Below, piece after piece: positions 26,147-31,682 of a DNA stretch of 48,424 nucleotides. The position numbers and the translations under genes are program-made. Origin of the DNA: Barnesiella sp. GTDB taxonomy: Bacteria; Bacteroidota; Bacteroidia; Bacteroidales; Muribaculaceae. The stretch lies in assembly GCA_014800945.1 (NCBI GenBank), contig JAAVFD010000011.1:73294-121717 (forward strand), written 5' to 3'. Numbering within the stretch: the first letter of the stretch is position 1; each line of letters begins with the position of its first letter. The notes under the pieces were generated by a model that was given only the letters and a program-made list of their open reading frames with translations, did not search any database and had not been told where the DNA came from.

Positions 26147-27036
26147 CAGTTGATTGTTTCGGTAAGGAAATTGGTTATCTTTTCCATCTCATTCCACCAG
26201 TCGTATGCCAATGGCTGAATAACAAGTCTCTTAGCTCCGGACTGTTCTTCAACAGTTTCACTTTTAGTCCCGGCCATCTGTGGTTCAACAAAAAAAGCTA
26301 TCGGATTATGTGAGGCAGCCATTTCCATTTGTTTCTGAAGGCCTTTAGGAGTAGTCTCTTTGTTTTCCATTCCGAGTGAAATCTGATTGATGCCATAGTC
26401 ACGGGCAAAATAACTTAAAGACGGGTGCCATACTAATATTGATTTTCCTTTTATCGGTAAAAGGCGTTCGGTAAACTCATTGTCAAGAGAGTCAAGTTTA
26501 TGTATCAGTAATTTGAAACGACAAGTATAATATTCTTTATTAACGCTATCTGTTTCCACAATAGCGTTGAACATATTAGACGCAATAATCTTGGCATTTT
26601 TCACAGATGACCAAGTATGTGGATCTATTCCGTCATTGTCATGAGAGTGATTGTGAGAATGTTCATGAGTCCCATAAATAAGAGATATACCCTCTGATGT
26701 GTCAATTACCTTCACCTCAGGATTGGAGCCGGTAATTCTTTCTATGAGACTTTTTTCCCAAGGCAGATTTCCCATTCTCATATATAATGAAGATTCCGTA
26801 GCACTTTTAAGTGATGACATTGGGGGATCAAAGTTTTCAGGATTAGCATCACCGGGTAACAAACTGACAACATTTAGCTTATCACCTCCAATTTGTTCAA
26901 GAATCCATCTTTGTGGTTCTATACTGACGCTTATGGTTTTGATATTGTTTTCTTTTGTAGCGTCATTGTTTTTATGGGAACACCCCATAGCAAGAGAGGT
27001 AATTATCGAAAATATAAAAAAATCAATCTTGTTCAT
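26146..27036 (-). CDS. znuA: Metal ABC transporter substrate-binding lipoprotein (ZnuA-like)
   Basis: A 296-residue lipoprotein, with start taken at 27036 (MNKIDFFIFS) so that the lipobox AMGC falls at residues 15-18; the open frame extends 14 codons upstream. It is a cluster A-I metal-binding fold. The usual first histidine ligand is replaced in 'GDANPENFDPP' (Glu). The later histidine in 'DPHTW' and that in 'VWHPSLSYF' are kept. The acidic fourth position region reads 'FFVEPQMAGTKSE'. A His-rich loop (THEHSHNHSHDND) precedes 'DPHTW', as in zinc-type ZnuA proteins. It delivers zinc (or manganese) to the permease. The gene overlaps the VanZ-GNAT gene by 14 nt and znuC by 1 nt. Confidence 0.9.
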   Translation of the reverse strand: MNKIDFFIFSIITSLAMGCSHKNNDATKENNIKTISVSIEPQRWILEQIGGDKLNVVSLLPGDANPENFDPPMSSLKSATESSLYMRMGNLPWEKSLIERITGSNPEVKVIDTSEGISLIYGTHEHSHNHSHDNDGIDPHTWSSVKNAKIIASNMFNAIVETDSVNKEYYTCRFKLLIHKLDSLDNEFTERLLPIKGKSILVWHPSLSYFARDYGINQISLGMENKETTPKGLQKQMEMAASHNPIAFFVEPQMAGTKSETVEEQSGAKRLVIQPLAYDWWNEMEKITNFLTETIN

Positions 27037-27961
27037 AAACCGTTTTATGAAGTTCAGACGAAATTGTTGCAGGATCAAGGGTTTCCGAGGTACCCATTAA
27101 TATAAGTGGTACAGACGGTAAATCTTTTCGATATGGTGGTTGAATATAATTGAAATTGCTGAAATCTTTGAACCCAAGTCTCTTGTAGAACTCGATTCTT
27201 CTTTTAGCATCTTCACCGAGTGATTCCGGTTCGGCTTCCAGAACAACCGGTTTTGTTGTGGTTGAACAGAATCGCTTTAGAGCCTTAGCTCCTATACCTC
27301 GGTTTCTTAATGCCCGATCAATAGCAAAATGCTCAATATATACAAAGTCTTTTAGATTCCATGACGTAATAAATCCTACTGGAGCACCATCCAATATTAC
27401 TAATGTCATTGTCATAGGGCTACTCTCACTTCGTGAACGGGTCAAGATATCACCCCACTCTCTTCTCTCGGCTTCGGGAAATGACTTTGTGTATATACTT
27501 TTGAGACGGTTGATAGTGGAATAATCTTCATATTCACATTTGCGGCAGTCTGTTACCGATTTGCGGAAGTAATTTCGGTCAATTATATAAATAATAATGG
27601 AGGCAGAAATAGCACCTGAAGCATCCGCTATAATATCTGCATATTCAGCGCTTCTCCCCAAATCCATTGCATTTTGCAGAAACTCAACGGAAATGCCCGA
27701 AATAATAGATATTGCTGCCGCAAATATTGCACATAACAAGGAATTCCTCTTTTTACCGGTTCGCATCATATCAACGAATAACGCTCCGGAGAAACATCCA
27801 AACATAATGAAATGAGCCACTTTGTCAGCTCCGGGAAACAATTGGATATCTGCGTCTGGCAATGGTTTCGGCACAAGGGTAAGCCAACAAATGGCGAGCA
27901 AAATCACCAGTGAAAATATGTAAGGCGGAGACATCCGCAGTATTGAGGTTATTAGCTTCAT
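27023..27961 (-). CDS. VanZ-like membrane domain fused to GNAT acetyltransferase
   Basis: A 312-residue protein with two unrelated parts. Residues about 10-135 are VanZ-like, with four hydrophobic helices, 'DKVAHFIMFGCFSGAL' and 'EFLQNAMDLGRSAEYADIIADASGA', the hallmark pattern. Residues about 145-300 are a GNAT domain, with 'FVYIEHFAIDRALRNRGIGAKALKRF' (acetyl-CoA pyrophosphate loop RGIGA) and 'RIEFYKRLGFKDF'. VanZ homologues affect sensitivity to glycopeptides by unknown means; GNAT enzymes acetylate amines. The start is uncertain: ATG 27961 is only 7 nt from a TACTTTTGC element, so the transcript would be nearly leaderless. ATG 27934 (MSPPYIF) is the alternative. No frameshift separates the domains. 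The 3' end overlaps znuA by 14 nt. Confidence 0.85.
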   Translation of the reverse strand: MKLITSILRMSPPYIFSLVILLAICWLTLVPKPLPDADIQLFPGADKVAHFIMFGCFSGALFVDMMRTGKKRNSLLCAIFAAAISIISGISVEFLQNAMDLGRSAEYADIIADASGAISASIIIYIIDRNYFRKSVTDCRKCEYEDYSTINRLKSIYTKSFPEAERREWGDILTRSRSESSPMTMTLVILDGAPVGFITSWNLKDFVYIEHFAIDRALRNRGIGAKALKRFCSTTTKPVVLEAEPESLGEDAKRRIEFYKRLGFKDFSNFNYIQPPYRKDLPSVPLILMGTSETLDPATISSELHKTVYEQD

Positions 27962-27967
27962 ATCACG

Positions 27968-27975
27968 CAAAAGTA
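27968..27975 (-). promoter_or_regulatory. Putative -7 element for the VanZ-GNAT/znuAC operon
   Basis: The minus strand reads TACTTTTG followed by C, an exact consensus match. It is just 6 nt from ATG 27961, suggesting a leaderless transcript or use of the ATG at 27934. Confidence 0.4.
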
Positions 27976-28071
27976 AGAAAAAATTCAATGAAGTAACTCT
28001 ATTTACACTAAAACGGTTCATTACAGAAGGCTTTTTACCTCTATTAGCACCGATAAATAATAAAAAAGGCG

Positions 28072-28097: not shown

Positions 28098-28868
28098 ATG
28101 AGCGCAGAGTCTATAGAAGTTTGCGGAACCAAATTAGTTTATGATGTAACAGGCAGTGGTAAACCACTGATTCTGATGCATGGATGGGGTTGCAACTCAT
28201 CAACTGTATCCGGCATTGCCGCTGTTGCAGCACAGACTCACACAGTGTATAATTTAGACCTCCCGGGTCATGGACAAAGCCCTGAACCTAAAGAGGTGTG
28301 GGGAGTTGAAGAATATACTGCTGCAATAGAAGAATTGGTAACTCGATTAGGACTTGAAAATCCTGTCATTATTGGGCACTCATTTGGCGGTAGGATAGGA
28401 ATACTTTACGCGAGTAGAAATAAAGTGGATAAGTTAATTCTCGTCGATGCCGCTGGAGTGAAGCCAAGAAGGTCTCTCAAATATTATTATAAGGTTTATA
28501 CTTTTAAGGCTATAAAGAATATATTGAATATTTTTCTTGGCAAAGAAAAAGCAAAACCAATTATTGAAAACTTCCGGGCAAAAAGAGGTAGTGCGGACTA
28601 TGCTGCGGCAAGCCCTATGATGAAGCAAATCCTGAGTAAGAGTGTAAATCAGGATTTACGTTCCTATATGCAGAATATTTCAGCTCCAACTCTGTTAATA
28701 TGGGGTGAGAATGATACTGCTACTCCGATGCGAGATGCCCGCATTATGGAACGTCTTATTCCTAATGCCGGTCTTGTTTCTTTTGCCGGTTGTGGACACT
28801 ATAGTTTTCTCGACAATTCGGCTGGGTTTGCCTCTGTCCTCCGAAGTTTCTTAAAATCAACAAATTAA
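28098..28868 (+). CDS. Alpha/beta-hydrolase fold protein
   Basis: A 256-residue cytoplasmic hydrolase with a full catalytic triad: Ser95 in GHSFGG, Asp206 in 'WGENDTATP' and His234 in 'CGHYSF'. The oxyanion segment is 'LMHGWGCNSS'. A cap region at about 120-185 is basic and aromatic (SLKYYYKVYTFKAIKNILNIF). It starts the directon and lies 5 nt before the MurF-like gene, which is followed by a D-Ala-D-Ala ligase. From memory this trio recurs in Clostridia-type genomes, which suggests a role linked to cell-wall precursors, but the substrate is unknown. MenH (menaquinone pathway) is an alternative given the men genes nearby; the adjacency to Mur enzymes argues against it. Confidence 0.85.
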   Translation: MSAESIEVCGTKLVYDVTGSGKPLILMHGWGCNSSTVSGIAAVAAQTHTVYNLDLPGHGQSPEPKEVWGVEEYTAAIEELVTRLGLENPVIIGHSFGGRIGILYASRNKVDKLILVDAAGVKPRRSLKYYYKVYTFKAIKNILNIFLGKEKAKPIIENFRAKRGSADYAAASPMMKQILSKSVNQDLRSYMQNISAPTLLIWGENDTATPMRDARIMERLIPNAGLVSFAGCGHYSFLDNSAGFASVLRSFLKSTN

Positions 28869-28873
28869 AAGCT

Positions 28874-30469
28874 ATGTCACTACTCTTCGTAATATTCTTG
28901 GTGATTTCTGTAATTGCGTTTCTAAATCTTGTGTTCGAGTTGAAGCGTGATCTTATGATGATGCAACAGAATTCGTACAGAATAGATAGATACAAAAGAT
29001 GGCTTAAAACATCTGCTGATTCAACCTCATGGGTGCGACTGATCGGTATGTGTGTCTTCCTTTTCAGTCTTGTTAGTTTTTCCAATGGTACTTGGTCTAT
29101 GGCTGTTTTGGCAGCTTGGGCAGGAGGTAATGTTATTTATCTCCAGAGCCGTAAGTATAAGAAACCGCTTGTTTGGACCCCTCGTTGTAAAAGAATCTAC
29201 ACGGTTTCGGCTTTGCTGAGTATTATTGTGATAGGGGCTGCAACTACGATTTTCGGACATGATGAACTTAGCAGATTGTGTGCTGCTTCTGTGGCAGCCG
29301 TCGGTTGTTATTGTGCAAGTCATATTATCATCATTTCTTCTGTGTGGCTTCTCGAACCGATTGAAAAGAAAATAAACAGAGGGTATTATCGTGATGCTGA
29401 AAATATTCTCAAATCCATGCCTCAGCTCAAAATAATTGGAATAACCGGCAGTTATGGAAAGACAAGTACTAAACACTATCTTCACCGAATATTGAGCGAA
29501 GCTTTCCAAACAGCTATGACTCCCGGTAGCTATAATACCACGCTCGGTGTAATCCGAACTGTCAGAGAGTATTTGAAACCCTATGATCAGGTATTTATTG
29601 TTGAGATGGGAGCCAAACAGATAGGTGATATTAAAGAAATATGTGATTTGGTTCACCCTTCTATTGGAATTGTCACCGCAGTAGGTGAGCAGCATCTTGA
29701 ATCTTTTAAGACAATAGATAATGTACAGCGGACCAAATTCGAACTAATTGATTCTCTACCGTCTGATGGACTTGCAGTGATAAACAATGACTTTCCGAAG
29801 ATTGCAGACAGAAATGTAACCAACTGCAAATGCATTAGATATGCAGTATCAGGCGTAGAGGGTGTTCAATGGGAAGCAAAAGATATTGAGTATTCTGAAA
29901 AAGGTACCTCATTTACAGCTAAAGGTCCGGATATTGAAATCAGACTTACAACGAAGCTGGTTGGTGATTGTAATATTTCAAACCTGCTTGCTTGTGTGGC
30001 GGTAGCTGTTAATCTTGGTGTGCCCTCTGAAAAAATCAGATATGCTGTGAGTCGCATAGAACAGGTTGAACACAGACTGAATCTTAAGCGTACCCCGGCA
30101 GGAATAACCATTATTGATGATGCATTCAACTCCAATCCTACGGGATCGGCTATGGCACTCGATGTTTTGAGTAGGATGAAAGGAGGCAGAAGAATTGTGA
30201 TTACACCTGGTATGATTGAACTTGGTGAACGCACTGCGGAATTAAATAGAAAGTTTGGTCAGAAAATAGCTTCATGTGCCGATATAGCGATAGTGGTTGG
30301 ACACTATAACCGTGATGCGATTGTTGATGGAATCAAAAGCGAAGGTATGCCGGATGAAGCAGTTCTTACCGCCGACACTTTTGCGCAGGCTCAGTCGCTT
30401 TTGCAAGGTTTCGTAAAAGCAGGAGATACCGTTTTATATGAAAATGATTTACCTGACACATTCAAATAA
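28874..30469 (+). CDS. Membrane-anchored MurF-like Mur ligase
   Basis: A 531-residue protein. Residues 1-160 carry about five hydrophobic helices (about 2-21, 53-70, 74-92, 108-127 and 134-158). Residues 165-531 form a Mur ligase core. The ATP loop is GITGSYGKTST (189-199). 'EMGAKQIGDIKEICDLVHP' and 'VTAVGEQHLESF' follow. 'IIDDAFNSNPTGSAMALDVL' (413-432) corresponds to the MurF 'DAYNANP' signature, and 'PGMIELGERTAELN' matches the MurF C-terminal domain. MurF joins D-Ala-D-Ala to UDP-MurNAc-tripeptide. Standard MurF is soluble and about 430-460 residues, so the membrane domain is extra. The C-terminus 'VLYENDLPDTFK' is an odd ending that I recall from a clostridial Mur ligase subgroup. It sits between the hydrolase and the ligase gene. 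Confidence 0.85.
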   Translation: MSLLFVIFLVISVIAFLNLVFELKRDLMMMQQNSYRIDRYKRWLKTSADSTSWVRLIGMCVFLFSLVSFSNGTWSMAVLAAWAGGNVIYLQSRKYKKPLVWTPRCKRIYTVSALLSIIVIGAATTIFGHDELSRLCAASVAAVGCYCASHIIIISSVWLLEPIEKKINRGYYRDAENILKSMPQLKIIGITGSYGKTSTKHYLHRILSEAFQTAMTPGSYNTTLGVIRTVREYLKPYDQVFIVEMGAKQIGDIKEICDLVHPSIGIVTAVGEQHLESFKTIDNVQRTKFELIDSLPSDGLAVINNDFPKIADRNVTNCKCIRYAVSGVEGVQWEAKDIEYSEKGTSFTAKGPDIEIRLTTKLVGDCNISNLLACVAVAVNLGVPSEKIRYAVSRIEQVEHRLNLKRTPAGITIIDDAFNSNPTGSAMALDVLSRMKGGRRIVITPGMIELGERTAELNRKFGQKIASCADIAIVVGHYNRDAIVDGIKSEGMPDEAVLTADTFAQAQSLLQGFVKAGDTVLYENDLPDTFK

Positions 30470-30497
30470 ATAATAATTCAGTTACAGATAATCTGTT

Positions 30498-31682
30498 ATG
30501 AAAACAAATATTGGAGTATTTTTCGGTGGACGTTCCACCGAGCATGAGATTTCGGTGATTTCAGCTAATCAGGCTATGCACGCCATAGATAGGGATAAAT
30601 ACAATGTAACTCCTATATACATTTCCAAAGATGGTAAATGGTACACTGGGGAGGCTCTGTTTGATGTAGCTAACTACCGAAATACTGAGGAGCTTTTGAA
30701 AAAATGTGAGGAAGTTTATATGCGTCCTGTTTTCGGGGATCGGAATATTTATAAATCAAAGAAACCTATGTTTGGTAACGGAGTAGTAGCATCGTTGGAT
30801 GTTGCAATTCCCGTTCTGCATGGCTCTAATGGCGAAGATGGCACATTTGAGGGCATTCTTGAAGCTATCGGTATTCCTTTTGCCGGATGTGATGTTCTGT
30901 CATCTGCTAATGGTATGGACAAAATCACCATGAAGATGATTCTTGCCAGCAACGGAATCCCTGTGGTAGATTATGTGTGGTTTACCGATAAGGAGTGGTT
31001 TTCAAAGCACGATGAACTTATTGCGAAGATTGAATCAACTCTTGGTTATCCGGTAATCGTTAAGCCTGCTAATCTTGGCTCCAGTGTCGGTATTGGAAGA
31101 GCCGCCGACCGTCAGAAGCTTGAAGAGTGTGTTGAAGATGCCGCAAGATACTCAAGTAGAATTATTGTTGAGCACATGGTTGACAACTTGAAAGAAATCA
31201 ACTGTTCTGTTCTCGGAGATTGTGATGATTACCGTACTTCGGTTTGCGAAGAACCTATAAAGAGTGGTGAAATTCTCTCTTATGAGGATAAATACATGGG
31301 AGGCACCAAGGGTGCTAAAGGTATGCAGGCTTCACAAAAAAGGATACCCGCTGAGTTACCGGATAAAATGAGTGAGGAAATACGTTTCCTTGCAGGAGAA
31401 ACATTCCGTGTTCTCAGTTGCCATGGCGTAAGTCGTGTGGATGTGATAGTTGACGCCGATACAGATAAGATATATGTCAACGAGATTAATACAATACCCG
31501 GATCTCTTTCATTCTACCTCTGGGAAGCTACCGGAATCACCTTCTCTCAATTGATGGATAAACTGGTTGAACTTGCTCTTAAAAGAAATAGAGAAAGAGC
31601 CAATAAAACAGTAACCTATTCAAGAAATATATTTAGCCTTGGCGGTGGTTGTAAAGGCGGCTGCAAAGGAAAATTGAAATAA
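30498..31682 (+). CDS. D-alanine-D-alanine ligase family protein, long form
   Basis: A 394-residue ATP-grasp ligase, about 50-70 residues longer than common Ddl. The N-terminal domain has 'FFGGRSTEHEISVISA', then 'VLHGSNGEDGTFEGILEAIGIPFAG' and 'ANGMDKITMK'. The ATP-grasp part has 'PVIVKPANLGSSVGIG' and 'VNEINTIPGSLSFYLWEATGI'. Omega-loop Tyr266 (SYEDKYMGG) aligns with the tyrosine of D-Ala-D-Ala enzymes rather than the histidine of VanA-type D-Ala-D-Lac ligases, so D-Ala is the likelier second substrate. The last residues are glycine/cysteine/lysine-rich with Cys385 and Cys389. It lies 28 nt after the MurF-like gene and shares 1 nt with the EamA gene. Confidence 0.9.
   Translation: MKTNIGVFFGGRSTEHEISVISANQAMHAIDRDKYNVTPIYISKDGKWYTGEALFDVANYRNTEELLKKCEEVYMRPVFGDRNIYKSKKPMFGNGVVASLDVAIPVLHGSNGEDGTFEGILEAIGIPFAGCDVLSSANGMDKITMKMILASNGIPVVDYVWFTDKEWFSKHDELIAKIESTLGYPVIVKPANLGSSVGIGRAADRQKLEECVEDAARYSSRIIVEHMVDNLKEINCSVLGDCDDYRTSVCEEPIKSGEILSYEDKYMGGTKGAKGMQASQKRIPAELPDKMSEEIRFLAGETFRVLSCHGVSRVDVIVDADTDKIYVNEINTIPGSLSFYLWEATGITFSQLMDKLVELALKRNRERANKTVTYSRNIFSLGGGCKGGCKGKLK

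Follow-up and report, generated by a model that had tools for sequence, protein, structure and literature searches.

A membrane-domain MurF ligase with a dedicated hydrolase as the probable main D-Ala-D-Ala adding enzyme of a Barnesiella sp. and its relatives

MurF is usually regarded as a soluble enzyme of three domains that acts on a UDP-linked precursor, and as an antibacterial target. Another Mur ligase, MurT, acts with its partner GatD, a glutaminase, on lipid II, i.e. on a lipid-linked substrate, which is thereby amidated. Domain 1 of bacterial Mur ligases is reported to bind the precursor, and MurT to depart from the classical architecture of three domains and to work with a second enzyme (PMC11915815). 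UshA (YqjL) of Bacillus subtilis, an alpha/beta-hydrolase-like protein, has been proposed to free the carrier lipid from lipid-linked sugars at the cytoplasmic membrane face, a proposal made without a demonstration of enzymatic activity, as stated in the same work (PMC11898649). The titles and opening lines of abstracts listed by our searches of the open-licence literature contained no description of a membrane MurF, some of these searches being swamped by the muscle protein MuRF. Here we analysed a window of 48,424 nucleotides from Barnesiella sp. (Muribaculaceae; positions 73,294 to 121,717 of contig JAAVFD010000011.1), which carries a trio of genes for an alpha/beta hydrolase, a membrane MurF-type ligase and a D-Ala-D-Ala ligase (Ddl). 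For MurF-type ligases with a membrane domain instead of domain 1 we propose the name TM-MurF.

The trio is very probably the organism's own module for making and adding D-Ala-D-Ala, in which a membrane MurF with a dedicated hydrolase has displaced the soluble MurF. Ddl would join two D-Ala residues, TM-MurF would add D-Ala-D-Ala to the MurNAc-tripeptide, i.e. do the job of MurF, at the inner membrane face, and the dedicated alpha/beta hydrolase would be its regular partner. If this is true, a core step of cell-wall synthesis thought to be uniform across bacteria has two solutions, and a membrane form devoid of the precursor-binding domain and tied to a hydrolase stands in for soluble MurF in whole lineages. 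Two questions then become testable, namely whether D-Ala-D-Ala can be added after lipid linkage and why a hydrolase is needed, an enzyme whose link with an essential pathway calls for an explanation.

The three genes, their positions (Table 1), their spacing and the intact hydrolase triad agree with the original prediction, as confirmed by the open reading frame (ORF) list, Pfam and alignment. Gaps of 5 nt (hydrolase/TM-MurF) and 28 nt (TM-MurF/Ddl) separate the genes, all of which lie on the same strand. Pfam matched Abhydrolase_1 to the hydrolase (at 99.5 bits against a cut-off of 25.8), Mur_ligase_M and Mur_ligase_C to the 531-aa ligase, with residues 1-189 outside any known family, and Dala_Dala_lig_N and Dala_Dala_lig_C to the 394-aa ligase.

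Table 1. Features of the gene trio, in window coordinates
Feature	Position	Strand	Assignment and basis
Alpha/beta hydrolase, 256 aa	28098..28868	+	ORF list; Pfam Abhydrolase_1; partner of TM-MurF; triad S95-D206-H234 and GSxDY motif
Membrane MurF-type ligase (TM-MurF), 531 aa	28874..30469	+	Mur_ligase_M and Mur_ligase_C; best fold matches are MurF structures
TM-MurF membrane domain at the N-terminus (residues 1-182), helical, with about five spans	28874..29419	+	Hydropathy, model; no Pfam match
TM-MurF central (ATP) and C-terminal Mur ligase domains, end carrying the YENDLPD signature	29420..30466	+	Pfam, fold, residue alignment
D-Ala-D-Ala ligase (Ddl), 394 aa, Gly/Lys-rich C-terminal tail	30498..31682	+	NCBIfam NF002528

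Against the model of canonical MurF (TIGR01143), the TM-MurF of the window scored 240.5 bits, under the curated cut-off of 288.6, and the match began at profile position 73 of 418, leaving domain 1 uncovered. The N-terminal part was helical in an AlphaFold2 model (predicted local distance difference test, pLDDT, 92.9; 97.0 when the membrane domain was modelled alone), with seven helices, interpreted as roughly five membrane spans. By hydropathy there were four clear spans (residues 3-21, 51-69, 108-126 and 136-154) and a weaker one near 72-92. No solved structure matched the membrane domain at Foldseek E <= 0.001. The original prediction had seen an extra five-helix membrane domain on MurF; the helical membrane domain was upheld, its being an extra was not, for judged by the profile match the helices stand in place of MurF domain 1 and are not added to a complete MurF. 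With canonical MurF, TM-MurF shares the central ATP domain, the C-terminal domain, the closest folds (MurF structures 3zl8, 4qf5 and 1gg4 in a structure search) and the catalytic residues: K196, E244, H274, K288, R401, N419, N421 and E449 were present in 68/68 TM-MurFs, and N419, N421 and E449 also in 10/10 canonical MurFs aligned. It differs in lacking the N-terminal precursor-binding domain, in its membrane domain and lower score, in having a hydrolase partner, and in the motif before ELG, which is LG(D/E)M in canonical MurF and TPGM in TM-MurF. The pattern of sequence and distribution (below) strongly supports that TM-MurF with its intact catalytic residues substitutes for MurF, whose genomic place it appears to take.

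The family of the window genome (f1) was represented by 37 genomes, the window genome included. TM-MurF was detected in 30 of them and a strong Ddl match in the same 30; all 16 genomes of at least 90% completeness possessed both, each with exactly one strong Ddl match, and the match was also single in the window genome (assembly completeness 82.4%). G029 and G030 gave further ATP-grasp matches, all of them weak (E of 8.4e-12 at best) and in open frames longer than 1,000 aa. Canonical MurF over the cut-off was found in 0 of 14 family genomes tested, nor in G057 from another family of the same order; in the same search, 10/10 TM-MurF-negative genomes passed the cut-off. In the window genome murE, mraY, murD, an ftsW-like gene (under the ftsW cut-off), murG, murC and, further on, ftsZ formed one cluster without murF. 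Because the strong Ddl match is single and no canonical MurF exceeds the cut-off, the trio enzymes look like housekeeping ones, and in its own family the trio looks like the main D-Ala-D-Ala route. The proposal that it forms a second route was not supported by these genome searches for separate canonical murF and ddl genes.

Beyond the family, 392 genomes of the phylum were searched for relatives of TM-MurF (33-41% identity), which occurred in 87, namely in the window genome and in 86 others, all of the latter outside its class. The MurF model exceeded its cut-off in 298 of the 392 genomes and in none of the 87 with TM-MurF, where the best E ranged from 8.1e-80 to 7.0e-66 (no match was listed for G436), with the first four candidates per genome scored. 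Incompleteness of metagenome-assembled genomes (MAGs) could hide genes; the single-contig TM-MurF genomes G133, G090 and G239 likewise contained no canonical MurF over the cut-off. In all 19 distant TM-MurF genomes tested, TM-MurF was the best MurF match.

A scan of GTDB contigs for the motif VLYENDLPD yielded at least 80 loci (L164-L243), a collection which samples the clade and selects for that end. Titles among the matches listed named Bacteroidales, Rhodothermota, Balneolota, Actinomycetota, Clostridia, Pseudomonadota, Omnitrophota and, doubtfully, Acidobacteriota; such labels are record titles, mostly of MAGs, and are unreliable, the 'Acidobacteria' locus L234 being placed beside an Acidimicrobiia locus in the tree. 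Of the 35 genomes behind 36 of the matches listed, 32 had a MurF match without domain 1, G455 and G486 had no MurF match at E 1e-45, and the only match of G478 spanned profile positions 2-332, like another Mur ligase. Within the class of G459, by title Acidimicrobiia, 67 of 119 genomes exceeded the MurF cut-off, and in 46 the sole match was weaker and began within the profile. A TM-MurF profile extended over the membrane domain of almost all of these 46 (partial or split in G495, G573 and G601) and added G499, G555 and G560, giving 49 TM-MurF genomes. No genome with both forms was found among the 119; of the 67 canonical genomes, 14 were searched with the TM-MurF profile, and the others showed no second TM-MurF-type match at E 1e-40 in the MurF search. 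These searches suggest that TM-MurF is widespread and rarely coexists with canonical MurF.

We also tabulated the neighbourhood of TM-MurF. In 30 loci (29 from the family, including the window genome, and the one of G057), the hydrolase lay at most 94 bases upstream of TM-MurF in 28/30 and Ddl at most 347 bases downstream in 28 of the 29 that can be judged. The neighbourhood in the family is not due to chance; the genes surrounding the trio differ between its loci. From the motif scan, 72 of 80 listed loci were used (50 judgeable upstream, 60 downstream), the ORF filter having lost L164, L165, L181, L189, L194, L207, L233 and L236; this filter also missed MurF in L099, L107, L110 and L112. Among these matches listed, the hydrolase was located directly upstream on the same strand in 36/50 loci (by label, Bacteroidales 22/25, Actinomycetota 7/9, Clostridia 2/4, Pseudomonadota 2/2, Omnitrophota 1/1 and the Acidobacteriota label 1/1), and Ddl directly downstream in 30/60. 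In Acidimicrobiia, hydrolase and TM-MurF shared contig and strand in 49/49 genomes, the edges of the two matches being -4 to 184 bases apart. Adjacency is thus conserved elsewhere, which bears out the expectation that MurF, Ddl and hydrolase belong together. Among the 19 distant genomes, the hydrolase adjoined TM-MurF in ten, lay at a distance of about 1.2 kb in G068 and was encoded elsewhere in eight (G118, G164, G310, G350, G416, G425, G436 and G446), so that it is retained without linkage as well.

The gene that precedes TM-MurF in Balneolaceae and some neighbours is not the hydrolase; it is an ORF of about 335 aa on the opposite strand (L175, L180, L193, L198, L212 and L231 among the matches listed, and L098, L105, L106, L109, L111, L113 and L114); in the tested genomes of this kind the hydrolase was found elsewhere.

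The hydrolase itself was highly conserved in its putative active site. The triad residues and S165, D167 and Y168 of the GSxDY motif were identical in 35/35 aligned sequences, i.e. that of the window and 34 of the 36 adjacent hydrolases among the matches listed (L211 and L214 were left out; alignment A3 holds 21 of these and the window sequence). A hydrolase profile matched 24/24 TM-MurF genomes with at least 204.7 bits and 0/18 TM-MurF-negative genomes, which reached at most 108.4 bits. In Acidimicrobiia, the corresponding values were at least 173.5 bits in 49/49 TM-MurF genomes and at most 130.6 bits in canonical genomes, of which 0/31 matched (31 of the 67 passing the MurF cut-off). Seven Acidimicrobiia genomes of about 1 Mb, which gave only 5-7 candidates in a first look, have kept this hydrolase. 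The profile searches strongly support that one specific hydrolase goes with TM-MurF. As for its function, it is conceivable and rather doubtful that it acts on a precursor which is wrongly charged or linked to the carrier lipid. A role on the carrier lipid, similarly doubtful, would be a guess with UshA as the nearest precedent found: UshA too is an alpha/beta-hydrolase-like protein proposed for carrier-lipid-linked sugars, and differs as a stress regulon member untied to any MurF, the two being likened by description (PMC11898649).

Since the domain that grips the UDP-precursor is gone and a membrane domain stands in its place, TM-MurF may work at the inner membrane face. For the same loss of domain 1, whose role is taken from PMC11915815, the acceptor would be held differently. 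In an alignment of 55 sequences (the window and 54 of 56 complete TM-MurFs; L177 and L182 were left out for odd length), the membrane-domain residues Q31, Y35, W43, K96, T102, R104, R107, P162 and E164 were each present in at least 45. They are mostly polar or charged and, in the model, are located within or next to the loops that connect helices; these charged loops are candidates for holding the acceptor, whose recognition by way of the membrane domain is no more than inferred. It is possible, yet short of probable, that this acceptor is the carrier-lipid-linked tripeptide rather than UDP-MurNAc-tripeptide. MurT/GatD offers an analogy for such a lipid-linked acceptor. MurT is likewise a Mur ligase of non-classical layout paired with a second enzyme (PMC11915815). 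TM-MurF differs from it in its MurF-type C-terminal domain (PF02875) and in a partner that is an alpha/beta hydrolase, not a glutaminase; it scored 28.4 bits against the MurT family (cut-off 800), and Pfam detected Mur_ligase_C and no MurT C-terminal family. A more far-reaching and somewhat unlikely scheme is a rewired order of synthesis, in which MraY would move the tripeptide precursor to the carrier lipid, TM-MurF would add D-Ala-D-Ala to lipid I or II via its membrane domain, and the hydrolase would remove the carrier lipid from stalled or wrong precursors, in several phyla including gut Muribaculaceae and the streamlined Acidimicrobiia of about 1 Mb.

Alternatively, TM-MurF might be a housekeeping MurF acting on soluble UDP-MurNAc-tripeptide, its membrane domain merely anchoring it beside MraY and the hydrolase being a structural or stability partner. 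We give this nearly balanced credence; it is a finer version of the replacement of soluble MurF proposed above, so that the confidences in the two overlap. All evidence for that replacement fits it equally well, and since MurE and MraY of the window genome exceed their family cut-offs, UDP-tripeptide is expected there. Against it, the absence of domain 1 means that UDP-precursor binding would need a new site (role of domain 1 from PMC11915815), the conserved loop-near polar and charged residues are more than an anchor needs, and the triad kept in every aligned hydrolase speaks for catalysis.

Several observations weigh against the replacement of soluble MurF by the trio, or limit it. Within the family, 7/37 genomes were devoid of both TM-MurF and a strong Ddl match; all of them are 63-88% complete, and true absence is possible. 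The hydrolase of G009 is 1,234 bases from MurF, and within 1.5 kb no hydrolase was found in G029 and no Ddl in G034. At loci labelled Rhodothermota or Balneolota, the hydrolase was adjacent in only 1/8 among the matches listed. Neither MurF form was detected in 7/392 genomes of the phylum (G138, G183, G236, G260, G355, G367 and G422) and in 3/119 of Acidimicrobiia (G522, G578 and G583). The contrasts between genomes with and without TM-MurF partly reflect shared ancestry and are not independent events, although the split recurs in two phyla; moreover, several of the phylum labels come from MAG titles. Furthermore, Nocardioides sp. YR527 (L183) contained a canonical MurF (421 bits) together with TM-MurF and hydrolase. 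As the only one of the 35 genomes above to exceed the MurF cut-off, it indicates that TM-MurF need not always replace MurF; a true second route is plausible in this genome, the only such one among those tested.

The same case favours another explanation, according to which the trio would be a parallel ligase system for editing or rebuilding the ends of pentapeptides or for serving a different acceptor, the housekeeping enzyme being the MurF half of a MurF-alanine racemase fusion known from Bacteroidales (NF008897/PRK11930 type, by description and size). This fusion shares a MurF-like domain with TM-MurF and is encoded in the same window genome, on contig C34 (L002, L130), where it matches the full MurF profile (1-418; 250.5 bits). 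Its MurF half has domain 1 and retains both the P-loop and the counterpart of lysine K288, so that MurF activity is possible and a further point against replacement arises. Four aligned fusions (three from the family, one from G057) have, however, lost C-terminal MurF motif residues which canonical and membrane MurFs keep: N421 is changed to D in 4/4 and N419 to T in 3/4, and E449 is absent from 4/4, which suggests that the MurF half lacks MurF activity. In eight TM-MurF-negative genomes from the same order, a separate canonical MurF is retained in addition to the fusion, which by itself is therefore seemingly insufficient. No hydrolase gene of this kind was seen among the fusion neighbours shown (L130). 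With the single strong Ddl match and the first rank of TM-MurF in the distant genomes also standing against it, we regard the parallel system as improbable, although the degenerate fusion keeps the second-route question from full closure.

The assignment of the 394-residue ligase to the Ddl family was corroborated by NF002528 (351.8 bits, cut-off 262) and TIGR01205 (288.2, cut-off 245.65). Like described Ddl enzymes (structures 3i12 and 2i87), it is an ATP-grasp ligase, and it differs from them in the tail at 31600-31679, which is Gly/Lys-rich, has two Cys in the window copy and follows a conserved NIF motif; similar tails are common to relatives in Bacteroidales, and a shorter one is found in two Clostridia-type loci. 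That TM-MurF adds something other than D-Ala-D-Ala (e.g. a D-Ala-X dipeptide made by the Ddl-like ligase, as in glycopeptide resistance) is very improbable, since the matches of Ddl to Van-type models that might favour it stay far under their cut-offs (VanG 242 against 495 and D_ala_D_lac 202.3 against 550, with 25 of 54 families listed) and no other strong Ddl match exists in near-complete family genomes, the loop after EINTIPG, shorter than that of DdlA in the alignment, being the other point in its favour.

Finally, we examined the origin of TM-MurF in a tree of 84 sequences (quick search without bootstrap, midpoint root; one outgroup row without a P-loop match was dropped). The 68 TM-MurFs fell on one side of a branch with an SH-aLRT (Shimodaira-Hasegawa-like approximate likelihood ratio test) support of 98, apart from canonical MurF and the fusion; they include one from a MAG labelled Rhodothermus (L241). 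Those of Bacteroidales formed their own clade (support 99), and those of Clostridia grouped with Rhodothermota/Balneolota at a support of 90, which is below 95. The kinship with a clostridial subgroup noted originally is correct insofar as Clostridia and Christensenellaceae rows lie inside the same TM-MurF clade. On the two groupings just given, a clostridial donor to Bacteroidales is not supported.

Upstream of the trio and divergent from it, a gene at 27023-28021 (-) encodes a fusion of a VanZ-like with a GNAT acetyltransferase domain. Among the family loci shown, only those of G019, G025 and G028 likewise have a relative of this gene next to the trio.

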